From: Bacteroidales bacterium
GTDB lineage: Bacteria > Bacteroidota > Bacteroidia > Bacteroidales > UBA7960
DNA length: 37,853 bases
Direction of reading: 5' to 3'
Assembly: GCA_012521995.1 (NCBI GenBank)
Contig: JAAYLH010000012.1
Span: 1 to 37,853, forward strand
The notes under the pieces are model-generated. The model saw only the letters and a program-made list of their open reading frames with translations. It was not told the DNA's origin and did not search any database. Both the position numbers and the translations under genes were made by a program. Position 1 is the stretch's first letter. Each line of letters starts with the position of its first letter. Positions 8,533-23,574 of the stretch are shown piece by piece.

Positions 8533-11500
8533 TTGGTATTTATTAGGCGAGTTGTAATTTTTTTCTTTGGGGCCTGGTTGTTCGGAGCCCTAGCATTGTT
8601 TGCCCTGGACGCCTTTTCAACGGGAGCCTTGCCAGGGTTCATTCAGCAACCTCCTGTTGTCATCCAGGACAGCCTGCAGCCCGTTGAACCCGTTACTCTT
8701 CCCTATCCCTTTGAAGATGAAGGGGAATACACAATACACCAGTCACCACAGGGGGGCTTTTACCTTACCGATCCACCCAACGTCACCACCGACATCACCT
8801 ATGACCCTGTCTCGGGAATGTATGTAAAGACGCGCAAAGTTGGCGACCGTATCATTGGCCGTCCTACATACATCAGTTTTGAAGATTATCTGAAATACGA
8901 TTTCGACAACGCCCTTCAGCAGTACTGGCGCGATAAGGCTACTCCCCAGGGTTTTGAGCGCAGGCAAGGGGTGATCCCTGAAATATATATCGGAGGAGAA
9001 CTTTTCGACCGCATTTTCGGGGGCAGCACCATTGACATCAGGCCCACAGGCTCGGCTGAACTGATCTTCGGGGTGATGTCGAACCGCCGCGAGGACCCTT
9101 CGCTGGACGAAAAAAGACGCCGTACCACCAACTTCGACTTCCAGCAAAAAATACAGCTGAGCGTTCAAGCCAAGATCGGCGAAAAGATCGACATCCAGAG
9201 CAATTACAACACCGAGGCCACCTTCGATTTCGAGAACAGGATGAAGGTGGAATACCGGGGTACTGAAGATGAAATCCTGCAATTGGTGGAGGCGGGCGAC
9301 GTGACCCTGCCCCTGCCCGGCACGCTCATCTCGGGGACCCAGGGACTCTTTGGCTTCAAAACCCAGATGCAGTTTGGAAACACTACGGTGACCAGTGTCT
9401 TCTCGCAGCAAAAGACCGAGTCGTCCACAATCGAGGTTTCGGGAGGGGCACAAACCACTCAGTTTGAGATCAAGGCCGATGCATACGAGGAAAACCGCCA
9501 CTACTTCATCGGACAATATTTCCGCAACAACTACGATGATGCCATGTCGAGGCTGCCCATTATCAATTCCAACATCAACATCACCCGCCTTGAGGTTTGG
9601 CTCACCAACATAGGCGCAGCCACTGAAAATAACCGCAATATCGTGGCCATGGCCGACCTTGGTGAGTCGACCCCGAACAACCCCGCAGTGGGGAGTAGCT
9701 TCAACCCTGCCCCCTCCAACAACTCCAACAACATTTATTCCCAGCTTTTCGACTCACCTATCCGCAACCTGTCGGAAGCCAACAGCTACCTTCAGCAGCG
9801 ACCTGAGGGCTATGTTTCGGGCGTTGACTTTGAAAACGTCGAGAATGCCCGTTTGCTGCGCACCAACGAATTTACCTACAACCCTAAACTGGGTTTCATC
9901 TCGCTGAACCAGGCCGTAAACCCCGACCAGGTGCTTGCCGTAGCCTTCCAGTACACCCTGATCGGCGATACCACCACCTACCAGGTGGGTGAGTTCTCAA
10001 ACGAGGTGAATGCCCCGAACTCCCTAATTGTAAAATTGCTGAAGAGCACTTCCGTTGATACGCGCCTGCCCATCTGGGACCTGATGATGAAAAACGTTTA
10101 CAGCCTTGGGGCCTTCCAAATCAACCCCCAGGATTTCCGTTTGAACATCCTTTACGACAGCGAAGAGCTGGGCGTGAATGTAGGGTTCATAGATGAAGGG
10201 CCCGTGGCAGGCCAGCCCCTGATCCGTGTAATGGGTCTTGATCGCCTGAATACACAGCTCGACCCCATTCCTGATGGGGTGTTTGACTTCGTGGACCGCG
10301 CGGCAACGCAGGGAGGCACCATCCAGTCGACCAACGGACGCATCTATTTCCCTGTGGTAGAACCCTTCGGATCGCACCTGCGTGAAATGTTGCAGGACCC
10401 TGAGTTGGGCGACAAGTATGCCTTCGACTCACTCTACACCACTACCAAATACAGGGCACAGCAGTTTCCTGAGCGCAACCGCTTCTTATTGGAAGGACAG
10501 TACAAATCTTCCTCGGGTTCCGAAATCCCGCTGAATGCCATCAACGTCCCCCCCGGATCGGTGATCGTTACCGCAGGCGGAGTACCCCTGACCGAAAACG
10601 TGGACTTCACGGTGGATTACACCCTTGGACGCGTCAGGATCATCAACGAAGGGATCCTCAACTCGGGCACTCCCATCCGCATTTCACTCGAGAGCGCAAG
10701 CCTGTTCAATATTCAGACCAAAACCCTGATGGGGACGCACATCAATCACCGCATCAGCGACAACTTCAATGTGGGGGCCACCATCATGCGTCTTTCAGAA
10801 CGCCCCCTGACGCAAAAAGTGAACTACGGAGATGAACCCATTGCCAACACCATCTGGGGTCTGAACACAACCTATTCCACTGAGTCCCTGCTGATGACCA
10901 AGGTCCTCGACAAGCTTCCTTTCTACAGCAGCAACGCCGCTTCACGCCTGACCTTTATCGGTGAATTTGCCCACCTGATCCCCGGGCACTCGCGCCGCAT
11001 CGGCAGTGCAGGGACAGCCTATATTGACGATTTTGAAGGCAGCAAGTCGTCCATCGACCTGAAGAACGTACAGACCTGGTTTATTGCCAGCACACCCCAG
11101 CACCAGTTCACACCGGGTATGTTCCCTGAAGGAGCTCCCGGCACTGACTTGGCCTTCCGTTACAATGTTGCACGTCTGGCCTGGTACATCATTGACCCAC
11201 TGTTTACCCGCGTGAGCAACCTGACGCCCACGCACATCCGCAATGACGTGAACCAGCGCTCAAACCACTTCGTCAGGGAGGTGCTCGAAACCGAGATCTG
11301 GCCCAACAAGGAAAGTCCCACAGGCATCCCCTCGCCCATTGCCATTATGAATATGGCCTTTTATCCCAGCGAACGGGGCCAGTACAACTACGATGTGCTT
11401 CCATCGCCATACAGCCGCGGGGTGGCCCAGGATGGCAGCCTGCTCGACCCCGACACACGCTGGGGCGGGGTGCAGCGTGGATTGCAGACTACCGACTTCG

Positions 11501-14500
11501 AAGCATCGAATATTGAGTACATCGAGTTCTGGATGATGGACCCCTTCGTTTACAATCCGGATCACACGGGAGGATACCTGTACTTCAATCTTGGGGACGT
11601 CTCCGAAGACGTCCTGCGCGACGGGCGCAAAGCCTTTGAAAACGGGCTCCCCGTCACCGAGGAGATGGTCAATATCGACACCACCGCCTGGGGTATTGTG
11701 CCTACGGTACAGGCCGTTGTCAATGCCTTCGACAATGACCTGGCTTCCCGCCAATACCAAGACGTGGGTCTGGATGGCCTCAGCGTGGAAAAGGAACGCG
11801 AGTTCTTTGCCGAGCAGTACCTCGATGTGATCGCCAATCTTTTTGGCACTTCATCGCTTGCATACCAGCAGGCCATGGAGGACCCGTCATCCGACCTGTA
11901 TCATTACTATCGCGGCACCAATTACGATGCGGATGAGATAAGTATCCTCGACCGTTACAAACGTTATAACGGCAACGAGCGCAACAGCCCCACGGCAGAA
12001 CAGTCGCCTGAGGCCTATCCTACTTCTGCCACCAACCTTCCAAACACGGAAGACATCAACCGCGACGGCACCCTGAATGAATCGGAGCGCTATTTCCAGT
12101 ACCGTGTGAGCCTTCGCCCCGAAGACATGGTATCGGGCCAGAACTACATTACCGACGTAATGGAGACCAGCGTTCGGCTTGCCAACAATGAGGTGGAAAA
12201 TATCCGCTGGTACCAGTTCAAAATCCCGCTGCGTGACCCCAACCGGCAGGTGGTGGGCAATATCCAGGATTTCAAGTCGATTCGCTTTTTGCGTATGTTC
12301 TTCAAGGGCTTTGAAGAGCCCATTATTTGCCGCTTTGCCACCCTGGAACTGGTGCGCGGAACCTGGCGCACCTACGACCGTTCGCTGACAAGCCCCGGTG
12401 ATTATGTACCCATTGACAACGATGACACTTCTTTCGAGGTGTTCACGGTAAACCTGGAAGAAAACGGCCAGCGCTCGCCGGTACCCTATGTATTGCCTCC
12501 CGGCATTGAACGTGAGATAGACCTGGGCACCACCACCCTGCAGCAGCGCAACGAGCAGTCGCTGTCGCTGCGCGTTTTTGGCCTGAAGGACGGAGATGCC
12601 CGCGCTGTTTACAAGACTTCCGACCTTGATGTGCGCCAGTACAACCGCCTGAAGATGTTTTCTCATGCCGAGGCAGCGGGCCAGATCGAAGACCTCAACG
12701 ACGGCGATCTGACCGTTTTCATCAGGCTGGGATCGGACTTTACCAGTAACTACTACGAATACGAGGTGCCCCTTAAGGTCACGCCCTGGAACACCAGCGC
12801 GCTGAATGAGCGGGGCATCTGGCCCGAAGAGAACGAAATAGACCTGGAGTTCAATAAACTTCAGGAGCTGAAACTGTTACGCAACTCGCTTTCGCGCGAC
12901 GCTTCCTCAGGGGTCACCATGGCTGTGCCCTTCACTCAGCCCGATGGCGACAACAGAATGACTATCGTGGGCACGCCTACCCTAAGCAGCATTAAGGTAA
13001 TCATGGTAGGGGTGCGCAATCCCCGCAAGACCTTTCATACCCCCCTTGACGACGGCAGACCCAAGTCGGCAGAAGTCTGGGTCAACGAGTTGCGTCTCTA
13101 TGAATTTGATGACCAGGGCGGATGGGCTGCCAACGGACGTCTGAATGCCACCCTTGCCGACCTGGGCAATGTGACCCTGGCTGGATTTATCAGCACCCCC
13201 GGCTTTGGCGGCATCGAACAAAAAGTGAACGAGCGATCGAAGGAAGAGCTCACCTCATACGACCTGGCCACCAACCTCGAGCTGGGGCGGTTCTTCCCCC
13301 AGAATTTCGGGCTGCGCATCCCCATGCACTTCAGCTTCTCGGAAGCCATCAGCAATCCGCAGTACAACCCGCTCAACCCCGACATCCTCTTCAAGGACGA
13401 CCTGGATTCGTATGAGACCCAGGCCGAGCGCGACTCCATCCGCCACCTGGCGCAGGACTATACGCGCCGCAAGAGCCTCAACTTTACCAACGTGGCTAAA
13501 AACCGCACGGGGGGAGGCCCCAGCAGGATCTATGGCATCGAGAACTTTGACTTCACCTATGCCTTCACCGAGATCTATGCAAGAAGTGTTGACTTTGAAT
13601 ACGACCTCCAGAGGCAGTGGCGCGGCGCTCTGGGATACAACTATACGGCTAACCCCGACCCCGTCACCCCCTTCTCGAAAATCAACCTTTTCAGGCATAA
13701 GGCATTTACCCTGATCCGTGACTTCAACTTCTACTACATGCCACGGATGCTGTCGTTCCGCACAAATATAGACAGGGGATATGCTGAGTCGTTGATGCGT
13801 CCCAAGAGTACGGGGCTTGTGCTGCTTGAGCCAAACTTTGTGAAGACCTTCTCGTGGAACAGGCTTTATGACCTGCGCTGGGATTTGACCCGCGGATTGA
13901 AACTGGAGTTCACGGCCACCAACAATGCACGTATCGATGAGCCCGAGGGGCGTATCCAGCGGGGACAGGATGACTACCAGTGGAAACGCGACTCCATCTG
14001 GGAAAACATACGCAGTTTCGGGCGCACCACCTTTTACAACCACCGGATGAAGGTCACCTACAACATCCCCATCAACAAACTGCCCTTGCTCGACTGGGTC
14101 AATGCCAATGCCGAATATGCGGGCAATTACGACTGGGCCGCTGCAGCCCTGGCAGCCAGGGAACTGGGCAACACCGCCGAAAACTCACAGACCAAGCGAC
14201 TGAATGTGAACGCCAACCTGGTCAACCTGTACAACAAGGTAGGCTTCCTGCGCGAAATCAACCAGAAGAGCCAGGCCAGCGCAGGCCCCCAGCGACCCGG
14301 GGGACGACCGCGGCCGCAGCAACAAGAACAGGCCCAGCAGGACACCCTGCCCCCTGAACGACCCAACTATGGAAAGATTATCTTTAACGGCACTCTGCGT
14401 TTCCTGATGGGCTTCCGCAATTTCTCGATCAACTACACCGAAAGCAATGGTACCCGCCTGCCGGGCTTTGAACCTACTCCCGGCCTGCTGGGTCAGAACT

Positions 14501-15753
14501 GGTCACAAATGGCTCCCGGTACGGGCTTCATCTTTGGAAGCCAGGAAGACATCCGCGAACAGGCGGCACGCGAAGGATGGCTCACTACCAACCCCATGCT
14601 CAACAACGCTTTCGCAAAAAACCACACCCAGAACCTCTCGGCACGGAGCCAGTTTGAGCCCTTGCCCAACCTGCGGGTCGAGTTTACAGCCATCAGAAAC
14701 TACGCCTTGTCGCGCTCCGAATATTTCAAGGCCGACTCTCTGGGCAACTTCGGGTCGTTTAGCCCTATGGAAACGGGTAGTTTCAGCATTTCGTTCTTCT
14801 CGTTCAAAACGGCCTTCGAGTCATTCGACAGCAGGTTCAACACCTCCGAAAACTTCCAGAACTTCAAGGAATACCGTGAGCAAATTGCATTCCGCCTTGC
14901 GCAACGAAACCCCAACTGGGATCAGACCCTCGATTCAATTACGGGATACCCTTCAGGTTATGGCCCCACCTCACAGGATGTGATGATCCCTGCCTTTATG
15001 GCGGCATACGCGGGCTGGGATCCTTCAGGCTCCTCACTCTCGCCCTTCCTGAAGATCCCCATGCCCAGCTGGCGACTTACTTACGACGGCCTTTCGAAGG
15101 TTCCTGCCCTGCAGAAATACTTCCAGAATATTACCATTGCCCACGGCTACCGCAGCACCTTCAACATTGGCAGCTTCACCTCCGACATCCGCTACCGCGA
15201 ATCGTCCGACGGCTTCCAGCAAGCACGCGAAGTAACCTCGGGCAACTTCATCTCGGAACACGAAATCTCACAGGTGTCTATCAGCGAGCAGTTCAACCCA
15301 CTGATCAATTTCGACATGACCTGGCAGAACAGCCTGATGACGCGTTTCGAATACCGCAAGTCGAGAGACATTGGCCTGAGCTTTGCCAACAACCAGATCA
15401 CAGACGTGAGCAGCAACGAGATCATTATAGGGACGGGCTACCGCTTCCGCGATCTGGCCTTCAACATTGCCCAGGGCGGAGGCCGTCAGCGCATCGAAAG
15501 CGACCTGGTCCTGCGATTTGATTTGTCGATCCGTACCAACCGCACGGTATTGCGCAAACTGGTAGAAGACGTAGACCTGATCTCTGCAGGGCAACGCACA
15601 TTCTCGATCAACACCTCGGCCGACTACCAAGTTAGCCCGCGGGTAAACTTCCGCCTCTTTTACGACCGCGTCTTCACAAACCCCTTTGTGTCAAACCAGT
15701 TTGTGAACGTCAACACCAACGCAGGGTTTAGCCTCAGGTTTATGCTGATGTAA
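8533..15753 (+). CDS. sprA: T9SS outer-membrane translocon protein SprA (Sov homologue)
   Basis: 2406-residue protein, close to the length of known SprA proteins, which form a very large single-chain beta barrel (36 strands in the solved structure) that is the secretion channel of the type IX system. Residues 1-30 are a hydrophobic export signal. Family features include the early IRPTGSAEL segment with AKIGEKIDIQSNYN, the DDFEGSKSSIDLKN segment (about 828-843), and long runs of alternating beta strands with aromatic girdles to the C-terminus (FSLRFMLM). A Pro/Gln/Arg-rich low-complexity loop lies at about 1918-1945. No ATG is available near the 5' end: an in-frame stop at 8518 and the export signal leave TTG 8533 as the best start. 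It follows ruvA in an apparent operon and ends at a strong terminator. Confidence 0.95.
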   Translation: MVFIRRVVIFFFGAWLFGALALFALDAFSTGALPGFIQQPPVVIQDSLQPVEPVTLPYPFEDEGEYTIHQSPQGGFYLTDPPNVTTDITYDPVSGMYVKTRKVGDRIIGRPTYISFEDYLKYDFDNALQQYWRDKATPQGFERRQGVIPEIYIGGELFDRIFGGSTIDIRPTGSAELIFGVMSNRREDPSLDEKRRRTTNFDFQQKIQLSVQAKIGEKIDIQSNYNTEATFDFENRMKVEYRGTEDEILQLVEAGDVTLPLPGTLISGTQGLFGFKTQMQFGNTTVTSVFSQQKTESSTIEVSGGAQTTQFEIKADAYEENRHYFIGQYFRNNYDDAMSRLPIINSNINITRLEVWLTNIGAATENNRNIVAMADLGESTPNNPAVGSSFNPAPSNNSNNIYSQLFDSPIRNLSEANSYLQQRPEGYVSGVDFENVENARLLRTNEFTYNPKLGFISLNQAVNPDQVLAVAFQYTLIGDTTTYQVGEFSNEVNAPNSLIVKLLKSTSVDTRLPIWDLMMKNVYSLGAFQINPQDFRLNILYDSEELGVNVGFIDEGPVAGQPLIRVMGLDRLNTQLDPIPDGVFDFVDRAATQGGTIQSTNGRIYFPVVEPFGSHLREMLQDPELGDKYAFDSLYTTTKYRAQQFPERNRFLLEGQYKSSSGSEIPLNAINVPPGSVIVTAGGVPLTENVDFTVDYTLGRVRIINEGILNSGTPIRISLESASLFNIQTKTLMGTHINHRISDNFNVGATIMRLSERPLTQKVNYGDEPIANTIWGLNTTYSTESLLMTKVLDKLPFYSSNAASRLTFIGEFAHLIPGHSRRIGSAGTAYIDDFEGSKSSIDLKNVQTWFIASTPQHQFTPGMFPEGAPGTDLAFRYNVARLAWYIIDPLFTRVSNLTPTHIRNDVNQRSNHFVREVLETEIWPNKESPTGIPSPIAIMNMAFYPSERGQYNYDVLPSPYSRGVAQDGSLLDPDTRWGGVQRGLQTTDFEASNIEYIEFWMMDPFVYNPDHTGGYLYFNLGDVSEDVLRDGRKAFENGLPVTEEMVNIDTTAWGIVPTVQAVVNAFDNDLASRQYQDVGLDGLSVEKEREFFAEQYLDVIANLFGTSSLAYQQAMEDPSSDLYHYYRGTNYDADEISILDRYKRYNGNERNSPTAEQSPEAYPTSATNLPNTEDINRDGTLNESERYFQYRVSLRPEDMVSGQNYITDVMETSVRLANNEVENIRWYQFKIPLRDPNRQVVGNIQDFKSIRFLRMFFKGFEEPIICRFATLELVRGTWRTYDRSLTSPGDYVPIDNDDTSFEVFTVNLEENGQRSPVPYVLPPGIEREIDLGTTTLQQRNEQSLSLRVFGLKDGDARAVYKTSDLDVRQYNRLKMFSHAEAAGQIEDLNDGDLTVFIRLGSDFTSNYYEYEVPLKVTPWNTSALNERGIWPEENEIDLEFNKLQELKLLRNSLSRDASSGVTMAVPFTQPDGDNRMTIVGTPTLSSIKVIMVGVRNPRKTFHTPLDDGRPKSAEVWVNELRLYEFDDQGGWAANGRLNATLADLGNVTLAGFISTPGFGGIEQKVNERSKEELTSYDLATNLELGRFFPQNFGLRIPMHFSFSEAISNPQYNPLNPDILFKDDLDSYETQAERDSIRHLAQDYTRRKSLNFTNVAKNRTGGGPSRIYGIENFDFTYAFTEIYARSVDFEYDLQRQWRGALGYNYTANPDPVTPFSKINLFRHKAFTLIRDFNFYYMPRMLSFRTNIDRGYAESLMRPKSTGLVLLEPNFVKTFSWNRLYDLRWDLTRGLKLEFTATNNARIDEPEGRIQRGQDDYQWKRDSIWENIRSFGRTTFYNHRMKVTYNIPINKLPLLDWVNANAEYAGNYDWAAAALAARELGNTAENSQTKRLNVNANLVNLYNKVGFLREINQKSQASAGPQRPGGRPRPQQQEQAQQDTLPPERPNYGKIIFNGTLRFLMGFRNFSINYTESNGTRLPGFEPTPGLLGQNWSQMAPGTGFIFGSQEDIREQAAREGWLTTNPMLNNAFAKNHTQNLSARSQFEPLPNLRVEFTAIRNYALSRSEYFKADSLGNFGSFSPMETGSFSISFFSFKTAFESFDSRFNTSENFQNFKEYREQIAFRLAQRNPNWDQTLDSITGYPSGYGPTSQDVMIPAFMAAYAGWDPSGSSLSPFLKIPMPSWRLTYDGLSKVPALQKYFQNITIAHGYRSTFNIGSFTSDIRYRESSDGFQQAREVTSGNFISEHEISQVSISEQFNPLINFDMTWQNSLMTRFEYRKSRDIGLSFANNQITDVSSNEIIIGTGYRFRDLAFNIAQGGGRQRIESDLVLRFDLSIRTNRTVLRKLVEDVDLISAGQRTFSINTSADYQVSPRVNFRLFYDRVFTNPFVSNQFVNVNTNAGFSLRFMLM

Positions 15754-15778
15754 GACTGAAATAACATCCGAAATAACG

Positions 15779-15816
15779 GAGGCTGCCTCAAATTCAGGAG
15801 GCTGCCTCTTTTTTTT
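15779..15816 (+). terminator. Intrinsic terminator of sprA
   Basis: Two copies of GAGGCTGCCTC (15779-15789 and 15798-15808) pair as an 11-bp stem with one central T-T mismatch and an 8-base loop, followed by eight Ts (15809-15816). Each copy is itself nearly palindromic. Confidence 0.88.
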
Positions 15817-15918
15817 CCGGGGGCTTATAATCTTCCGGGCGTACCGTGACCCCAATATCCATTTCACGAAAGGGAAAAAACCATCTCCCATACCCCTTTC
15901 AGGATCGCACTTAAAAGG

Positions 15919-16028
15919 CAGATAAAACGTTAGTAAGACGTATTTAAAACGTACTTTAAACGGATTTCATACGTCTAAGGTACGTCTAAGGTACGTTTAA
16001 GGTACGTCTAAGGTACGTCTGAAGTACG
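15919..16028. repeat. Array of ten 11-bp units, each ending in ACG
   Basis: Ten consecutive 11-base units without gaps start at 15919, 15930, 15941, 15952, 15963, 15974, 15985, 15996, 16007 and 16018. All end in ACG. The last five are near-identical (consensus TCTAAGGTACG; three are exact); the first five are degenerate, AT-rich and keep mainly the final ACG. A twelfth-base slip gives one more possible unit (16029-16040). The period is close to one helical turn, so the conserved bases sit on one face of the DNA. I do not recognise it. Confidence 0.85.
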
Positions 16029-16162
16029 AAGAAAATTACGCCCGGAAAAGTTTTCGGAGGGATGATGAAACCAAACCCTTAAGGGTCCTCTTTTAAAAAA
16101 ACCGGGATTGGAAGCAACTATGGCTTCTTTTCAGAAGGCAGGGGGTTAAAAAGGAAATCAGT

Positions 16163-17098
16163 TCAATGATTCCCGCTGAAGGATGAGAAGGAGAACTTAT
16201 CCTTAAGGTTGATGAGTTCTTCTTTCATTGAAACAGGGGGCAGGCTGAGCAGGCTGAGGATGCGGTGGTCAGCTTCCACCTTAATCTCGCGCATGACGAG
16301 GTGCTGGTTGACAAAGATCATGTCGAGCCCGGGAAAGATTTCCCTGATCATTTCGGCCACCGATTCAATGGACACATTGTGCTCGCTGAGGTTATAGGTT
16401 CCAGATGGCAGGGGGTGATGGAGCAGGTTGGCAAGCACGTTGACCACCTTGTCGACGTGGATAAAAGCCCTTTGCTGTTTTCCGTTGCCTGTGATCTGGA
16501 TGCGACCGATGAAATTGGCTTCAAACATAAATCGGTTGATCACCGCGTCAAAACGAAGGCTGGGACTGTAGCCGTACACGTTTCCGCAGCGGATGATCCA
16601 GGCATCCATTTTGTTGAACAGGCGCTCGATGTGGGCTTCACCCCTGAGCTTACTGCTGCCGTAAAAGGTACGGGGATCGGGAGGGGTGTCGACGGTGATC
16701 ATCTGGTCGGAGGCGCCATATACCGAGGTCGTACTCAGGTACACGCATCGCTTTACCGGGCTTTCCTCGAGGGCATAGACCAGCTCGGCGGTGCCCCAGT
16801 GGTTTATCTGCTCGAACAGGTGTGAGTGCTCAGAAGCCAGGGGGGTTGAGACCTTGGCCGCCAAGTGATACACCACATCGATGTCTTCGAGGACTTTGCG
16901 CAGGTTGCGCGAATCGAGCAACTCGCCCATGATGAACCTGACCTTTCGGGGCTCGTAACGGTTGTCAAGAAAGAGGTTGTAGTTTCGCCTGCTGAGGTTA
17001 TCATACACCACGATCTTTTCCACGCGGGGGTCTTTCAGCAGCTCAAAAACGAGCTCGTTGCCAATGTAACCTGCGCCACCTGTAATCAGAATATTCAT
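16163..17098 (-). CDS. NAD-dependent epimerase/dehydratase (extended SDR)
   Basis: 311-residue extended short-chain dehydrogenase of the nucleotide-sugar epimerase type. The Rossmann motif GGAGYIG is at residues 7-13, Asp33 at the end of beta-strand 2 points to NAD, HLAAKV is at 78-83, the STTSVYG segment includes the catalytic Thr/Ser near 123-125, and Tyr146 and Lys150 form the YxxxK pair in YGSSK. The C-terminal part is the sugar-nucleotide-binding region (QRAFIHVDKVVNVL). The exact substrate cannot be read; UDP- or dTDP-sugars are likely from the family. It starts 38 bp after the CysH-type gene on the same strand, suggesting one transcript. Confidence 0.87.
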   Translation of the reverse strand: MNILITGGAGYIGNELVFELLKDPRVEKIVVYDNLSRRNYNLFLDNRYEPRKVRFIMGELLDSRNLRKVLEDIDVVYHLAAKVSTPLASEHSHLFEQINHWGTAELVYALEESPVKRCVYLSTTSVYGASDQMITVDTPPDPRTFYGSSKLRGEAHIERLFNKMDAWIIRCGNVYGYSPSLRFDAVINRFMFEANFIGRIQITGNGKQQRAFIHVDKVVNVLANLLHHPLPSGTYNLSEHNVSIESVAEMIREIFPGLDMIFVNQHLVMREIKVEADHRILSLLSLPPVSMKEELINLKDKFSFSSFSGNH

Positions 17099-23500: not shown

Positions 23501-23501
23501 G

Positions 23502-23574
<73 letters not shown>

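Follow-up and report, generated by a model that had tools for sequence, protein, structure and literature searches.

Dispersed palindromic arrays of 11-bp units and their link to DUF6266 genes in a Bacteroidales genome

Between a sprA-like gene and an epimerase gene of a Bacteroidales genome lies a run of 11-bp units that raises the question of what kind of element this is, whether it recurs and what might read it. The window (the whole stretch of DNA that was analysed, 37,853 nucleotides) is the entire contig C132 of a 3.26-Mb draft genome in 140 contigs (G000). A sequence-only reading had pointed to ten gapless 11-mers at 15919-16028, all ending in ACG, and this count was borne out (ACG in 10/10 units); 200 first-order Markov simulations of the window gave an in-phase ACG run of at most 3, as against 10 in the window itself. 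The neighbours that it had named, sprA and an epimerase gene, are those indicated by Pfam (SprA_N to the left, Epimerase to the right). The features of the locus are:

8533-15753, plus strand: sprA-like gene, left neighbour (SprA_N Pfam match)
15779-15817, plus strand: terminator-like hairpin with T run that follows sprA and precedes the array, outside the array itself (sequence, RNA fold pairing)
15905-15959, plus strand: weak half (promoter-side type), five degenerate inverted 11-bp units (unit parse, alignment A1)
15960-15970, no strand: centre unit ACGGATTTCAT of the inverted repeat, an 11-bp centre, class A (unit parse)
15971-16025, plus strand: strong half, five units with the class A consensus ACGTCTAAGGT, and a partial sixth core to 16028 (parse, alignment)
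16163-17098, minus strand: NAD-dependent epimerase/dehydratase gene, right neighbour (Epimerase Pfam match)

The array had been read as a plain direct repeat whose left half is degenerate but keeps period and ACG. The second part of this description stands, but the first does not, as unit parsing and alignment show the left half to be an inverted copy of the right: five degenerate units, the centre unit at 15960-15970 and five strong units form one inverted repeat. TRF splits the same stretch in two (15923-15967, 73% match; 15970-16028, 91%), and the model of the repeat family matches it at 15908-16029. The window also carries a tRNA-Phe gene on the minus strand (23501-23574).

The earlier reading had raised the question of genome-wide recurrence, and the array does recur: the window copy is one member of a dispersed family. 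BLAST with 351 bp around it returned 35 matches in G000, a count in which some places appear once per strand, and the pattern ACGT-N7-ACGT-N7-ACGT matched 221 times in the forward sense vs 0 times for the reversed control pattern. Alignment of 30 copies (A1) revealed the same unit, centre and polarity throughout, namely about five units, then a centre (11 or 10 bp), then five inverted units; typically, one half is strong, the other is degenerate with the core kept, and the whole measures ∼120 bp. A sequence-only model (R1) scored 46 places above 60 bits (strands merged by hand), followed by a gap and a second tier at 21-38 bits, from which 24 fetched loci gave 25 places: 12 of class C (CCGTATTAACT), 12 of class D (ACGGTTAAACT) and one of class E. 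Class F came from a palindrome scan, in which 61 of 62 long palindromes had 11 as their best period (582 kb, mostly stretches picked for containing arrays), and class H from a probe made of the unit before the DUF6266 gene on contig C51 (see below). Altogether, G000 holds at least 87 arrays in seven unit classes (places per class, merged by hand: A/B, 46; C, 12; D, 20; H, 6; E, 2; F, 1), a lower bound with 150 of 335 R1 candidates scored and five weak places unassigned to a class. A few arrays, among them L026, L028 and L031, are hybrids of a class A half and a class B half, as if the halves change separately.

The arrays are intergenic and lie in gaps of roughly 250-900 bp. Using our own codon-score gene caller, we found the neighbours of 67 arrays (classes A-D, including four gene-linked arrays) to be convergent in 26 cases, codirectional in 36 and divergent in 5, compared to 16, 41 and 18, respectively, for 75 background pairs of neighbours, 150 bp or more apart, from the first 30 loci. 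A position between converging genes, proposed earlier, thus describes the window locus but not the family, in which only 26/67 are convergent. A fixed polarity towards the codirectional neighbour was likewise rejected (9 vs 7). By eye, terminator-like hairpins often separate the gene from the array, as they do after sprA in the window. One type of terminator hairpin, GGCTGTCTC...GAGGCAGCC followed by a T run, recurs near many arrays (L015, L017, L028, L030, L052, window 15779-15817 and others). The genome's only Y1 transposase (RAYT-like, PF01797) lies at L078 (G000:C20:154-492) and is flanked by GTAG...GAGTCGC...ACTCA repeats unlike the 11-bp arrays.

One alternative is that the arrays act as RNA, being transcribed into hairpins that end, stabilise or process transcripts; many of them are found downstream of genes, and the window region folds better as RNA than its shuffles (z -6.5). 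We regard this as very improbable, since the array alone, folded as DNA, does no better than expected (z -1.3, equalled in 21/200 shuffles), the consensus fold of class A/B has a covariation term of only -0.37, a separate terminator often precedes the array, the gene-linked arrays described below stand upstream of the promoter and no Rfam family reaches its threshold. An assignment to Rfam 15 RNA was rejected (window 15700-16200, three matches, the best at 19.4 bits vs a gathering score of 88), as was an intrinsic terminator (a G+C-rich hairpin with a T run behind it), the units being A+T-rich and none of the 30 aligned arrays being followed by a T run (by eye). In class D, the arms are near-perfect inverted repeats (95% of cells paired) with some paired changes: the count of pairs changed on both sides (5/33) was reached in 91/500 shuffles, which counts against a hairpin, whereas the covariation score was reached in only 7/500. 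The class D pattern is what one would expect of a hairpin, but equally of a symmetric site for a protein. We also rejected the idea that the outer flanks belong to one long hairpin with the array. Single cases, the window among them, look paired across their flanks, but the left and right flanks of one element pair no better than those of different elements (self vs cross means 17.0 vs 16.8 for 45 A/B elements, 16.4 vs 17.2 for 11 of class C and 16.2 vs 16.4 for 12 of class D).

A gene beside the arrays emerged from comparing flanks with flanks by BLAST. The left flanks of L016, L043, L045 and L070, whose arrays are of classes A, B, B and C, proved homologous, and what they share is a gene of ∼212 amino acids that reads away from the array. 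Pfam assigns all four proteins to DUF6266 (PF19781; 43.0-65.8 bits vs a cut-off of 23.4), the sole match above cut-off. PF19781 has eight matches in G000, seven intact genes and one fragment at a contig end, and all seven intact genes (7/7) are directly preceded by an array that abuts or overlaps the promoter. These gene-linked arrays span six of the seven classes, class F being the one without a known gene; at least 80 arrays of G000, the window array among them, are gene-less in the sense that there is no PF19781 match at that place. The sequence-only reading had considered the array not to be an obvious promoter operator, yet arrays of the same class as the window array are found right at DUF6266 promoters.

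The association of gene and array, which is directly observed, extends beyond G000. When repeat lags from 7 to 20 were compared at 53 DUF6266 loci (of which L165 has no upstream sequence), the best lag was 11 upstream of the gene in 30/53 but downstream in only 6/53. By group, lag 11 was best upstream in 12/13 loci of this genus (downstream 3/13), in 8/25 of a draw across the phylum (downstream 3/25) and in 10/14 of the rest; the rule of an upstream array is weaker far from the genus, many loci having short or absent arrays. The motif CGTAnnAAST, in whose choice some of the tested sequences already played a part, was found 10 times in 9.1 kb upstream, 0 times in 8.8 kb downstream and 3 times in 54.7 kb of other flank at 26 loci (the 25 of the phylum draw and L127), 9 of which carry it upstream. 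A divergent pair of DUF6266 genes in G051 (L130, L141) has one array between them. A prediction from the link also held: the unit before the C51 gene, used as a probe, occurs at five further places in G000 with no control match, and additionally at one DUF6266 gene each in G002 and G003 and at one more place in G003. Among 26 genes, the distance between proteins correlates with that between units (Mantel r 0.565, with 0/5000 permutations as high; the windows of some weak arrays contain non-array sequence), and restricting the comparison to pairs with less than 65% identity (318 of 325) gives r 0.437; such a correlation is in part expected from linkage and common descent. Finally, in 12 aligned upstream regions of the genus (A5), the array ends against or over AATTT..TTA.ATTTG, like AATTTGnTTAnATTTG, which agrees with the Bacteroidetes promoter (TTTG at -33 and TAnnTTTG at -7). 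At L143, the TTTG that lies 19 bases before TATATTCG falls within the outermost weak unit, and such an overlap with the promoter may be why one half of the array is degenerate.

The predicted structure of the class A DUF6266 protein (pLDDT 91.2, with 57-80 for the N-terminal 40 residues) shows a beta-hairpin (19-32) followed by three helices (44-93), and its C-terminal part forms a fibronectin type III (FN3) domain. The latter was found by structure (best Z 9.3, rmsd 2.3 over 85 residues) and by sequence, and matches in a viral structure library are likewise mostly FN3-like. When the N-terminal part was modelled alone (pLDDT 76.1), the fold search gave a best Z of 4.5 and no reliable match, which does not demonstrate a new fold. 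Across 48 DUF6266 proteins, the near-invariant residues are M1, G14, R31, G108, W129, D142, R165, S205 and S207, and these include neither His nor Tyr nor another recognised catalytic set. As the model likewise contains no recognised DNA-binding fold, another protein, such as a host repressor or a nucleoid protein, might bind the arrays and control or silence DUF6266, itself a downstream FN3 product that does not touch DNA; the position of the array against the promoter is where the operator of any regulator would be. We think this unlikely, because each paralogue has a unit of its own that follows the protein and one regulator could not read six classes; moreover, no regulator gene was seen on inspection of the neighbours of four DUF6266 genes. 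In the mostly open-access literature searched, we found no mention of DUF6266 and no description of comparable dispersed 11-bp arrays.

A draw of 395 genomes from across the phylum contained 26 with DUF6266, and 14 control genomes contained none. Among 21 genomes that were chosen rather than drawn, 7 have it: 6 of the 8 with ACGT arrays (all but G299 and G313) and 1 of the 13 others (G037). Single-query searches of limited reach gave no match in phages and plasmids (query L127) and none confirmed in viral contigs (query L143), and one PHROG of unknown function showed a weak match (E 0.001). The array family is present in two genomes of the same genus and in one of another family; in G001, also of this genus, we found neither ACGT arrays nor DUF6266. 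Two broken DUF6266 genes, split over two frames or by a stop, lie in G003 (L200 on C24, L201 on C22). In G209, from another class of the phylum, an array of ATCAAAGACGT units (L198, G209:C1:2855986) has no DUF6266 within 10 kb, and the same unit precedes that genome's own DUF6266 match (L138), which contains stops. G299, without DUF6266, has a plain tandem repeat at one place. G313, from another class, has 31 ACGT-phased matches with the unit ACGTATTCAGT and no DUF6266 detected in the genome or beside the arrays, which are direct and not mirrored at the two loci that were read. These loci (L196 and L197, on G313 contigs C8 and C25) have about six ACGTATTCAGT units each and similar ends (GATCGA...TATCGAAGG), and perhaps represent a different system.

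At six gene pairs of G000 that have an array between them and are also neighbours in G003, a genome of the same genus, the gap in G003 is shorter by 252-554 bp (6/6), whereas 51 control pairs without an array differ by a median of 0 (range -194 to +92); a class H locus gives the same picture (about 390 vs 109 bp). The gaps of G000 grew by more than the length of an array. At the sprA locus of four relatives, the epimerase match (in one case only 48% identical) begins ∼43, 14, 46 and 247 bp after the sprA stop, as against a gap of 409 bp in G000, and the sequence read there contains no array. Four further relatives have no epimerase match next to sprA, a SprA search gave no match in G002 and G003, and a search with the PAPS gene gave no synteny in G001-G003. 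Absence from close relatives, which the sequence-only reading had set against itself, is hence true of the sprA locus in four relatives but not of other loci, the family having been found in three genomes. The window copy either arose in its own lineage or was lost in all of the compared relatives.

Some other arrays have stayed in place. The gene-less arrays that can be compared with a same-genus genome, out of at least 80, are either absent there or shared with that genome, and at three other positions the array is next to a gene that also adjoins an array in G002 or G003, a single common neighbour being the basis of each assignment. For five of the six orthologous pairs that are informative, the non-core positions of the array are better conserved than the flanks; the ACGT patterns by which the elements of G002 and G003 were found favour conserved cores, and non-core positions less so. 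Between G002 and G003, the values for array non-core vs flank were 77/81 vs 320/399, 61/66 vs 213/401 and 52/55 vs 365/426, with a fourth pair too similar to tell the two apart (55/55 vs 424/436). Between G000 and G002 or G003, they were 44/69 vs 186/363 and 41/56 vs 206/371, and in the sixth pair (L047/L111) the array is barely above its flanks (52/109 vs 136/330).

In one orthologous pair, G003 C14:372480 and L119 of G002, the strong half of one array is longer than that of the other by exactly one unit. The earlier reading had named copy number that varies only by slippage, with unit phase not conserved, as a result that would count against it; the change of a single unit does occur, yet phase is kept. 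That the arrays are ordinary tandem repeats made by slippage and without function, to which this pair lends some support, is almost certainly wrong. The same unit, centre and polarity at 30 loci, the 46 places above 60 bits, the dyad symmetry, the gene for six of the seven classes and the conservation above flanks all oppose it, and slippage alone was rejected as contradicted by the genome-wide pattern count, the alignment and the DUF6266 link.

A different account of the spread would be a selfish, REPtron-like system, in which DUF6266, alone or together with host nuclease or replication machinery, copies the array into intergenic DNA as a non-autonomous mobile repeat of no benefit to the host. 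The 6/6 comparable gaps of the same-genus genome and the sprA locus of four relatives that lack the array point in this direction, as do the many arrays in one genome vs few in relatives (a 387-kb contig of G003 has two ACGT arrays, one of them above the palindrome threshold) and the existence of several classes, each with a gene. We consider it rather unlikely, though to be taken seriously, in view of the lack of near-invariant His/Tyr or a recognised catalytic set in the 48 DUF6266 proteins, the failure to identify a target-site duplication and the arrays that stayed in place across species while their flanks diverged. Nor are flanks common to the copies: the class H copies L155, L185, L194 and L195 agree at 88-92% along 98-120 bp, with nothing in common outside. 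Either flanks decayed while arrays stayed, or each insertion carried filler of its own. One of these class H arrays, L195 (G000:C133), has no DUF6266 gene and precedes an apparent rpsF (encoded start read by eye).

We therefore favour, with a probability of about 0.5, the reading that the window array, which has no gene of its own, is a copy of the operator-like array found before DUF6266 genes, and that DUF6266 proteins may bind their arrays and control themselves. A multimeric DNA-binding protein, one of the suggestions of the sequence-only reading, is still our preferred candidate for the putative reader of the arrays, and would take up one unit per helical turn. On this proposal, a DUF6266 protein would bind its own 11-bp unit as an oligomer, with one subunit or dimer half per 11 bp, the assembly would grow cooperatively in both directions outward from the centre of the array, and by covering the -33 region it would repress its own promoter and limit its own expression. 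Gene-less arrays would be extra binding sites retained by selection for binding, and the benefit could fall to the host (regulation, chromosome structure) or to the DUF6266 lineage itself. While the link of gene and array is a matter of observation, binding, self-control and the role of the orphan arrays are what we infer from it, together with the lag test, the C51 prediction, the correlation of protein and unit, the promoter position, the arrays of G051 and G209 and the conservation of arrays. The lack of a recognised DNA-binding fold, the weaker lag of 11 across the phylum, the arrays of G313, class F without a gene and the L047/L111 pair weigh against it. Going further, we suggest only tentatively that DUF6266 is a new DNA-recognition protein on private palindromic arrays, whose paralogues, each with its arrays, would serve as parallel addressing systems within one chromosome without interfering, and whose arrays would have spread gene-free to ∼80 sites.

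The link connects a family of Bacteroidota genes whose function is unknown with a DNA target that is concrete and readable, whereby its role becomes directly testable. It also defines units of gene plus array that have scattered copies lacking the gene, and the protein of these units is not a recognised transposase. A DUF6266 protein may thus recognise sites all over the chromosome, and most of the genes examined seem to have a private array. If DUF6266 binds as proposed, the paralogues would offer a natural set of proteins that each recognise a different DNA target, and how the orphan arrays spread would become a new problem in the multiplication of bacterial repeats.

Several known systems share parts of this arrangement. 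Chromosomal proteins and regulators with recurring sites include MatP, which has scattered matS sites, and PhoB and OmpR, whose half sites are spaced 11 bp apart; unlike these, the present arrays are palindromes of ten units in several parallel classes per genome, and only DUF6266 scores above the Pfam cut-off. Closer in layout is the ParR/parC pair of parMRC, in which 11-bp repeats beside the promoter of the binder's gene are read by an oligomer of ParR, a ribbon-helix-helix protein encoded next to the gene for actin-like ParM. However, parC is one plasmid locus, as opposed to ∼80 chromosomal, mirror-symmetric copies here, and the candidate binder DUF6266 has a predicted beta-hairpin, helices and FN3, with an N-terminal part for which the fold search gave no reliable match. 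Like MITEs (miniature inverted-repeat transposable elements), the arrays are short, non-coding, palindromic and intergenic, with lineage-specific copies; in contrast to MITEs, copies share no flanks and the entire conserved part is unit-periodic. MITEs have terminal inverted repeats, a target-site duplication and homology between copies along the full insert; here, copies are homologous over the array only, the inserts are longer than the array and no duplication was seen by eye in six gaps. The nearest likeness is to REPtrons, as a DUF6266-family gene lies beside repeats of six of the seven classes, a shared logic and not a membership. REP/RAYT systems comprise short palindromic intergenic repeats in many copies, in classes tied to one gene family and co-diverging with it (PMC3116915, PMC8266576), and REPs are defined as 20-40 bp long, with one stem-loop and a terminal GTAG or CGTC tag (PMC3733652). 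The arrays are instead made of about ten 11-bp units over ∼120 bp and have no GTAG/CGTC tag, and the linked protein is DUF6266 with FN3, not an HUH Y1 tyrosine transposase of the RAYT kind; membership was rejected, the genome's sole Y1_Tnp gene lying elsewhere with GTAG-type flanks of its own. Because the repeat and the protein both depart from what defines REP and RAYT, we rate arrays and DUF6266 as a new kind of pair, which, if any repeat with a cognate gene were counted, would belong with the REP/RAYT-type systems.
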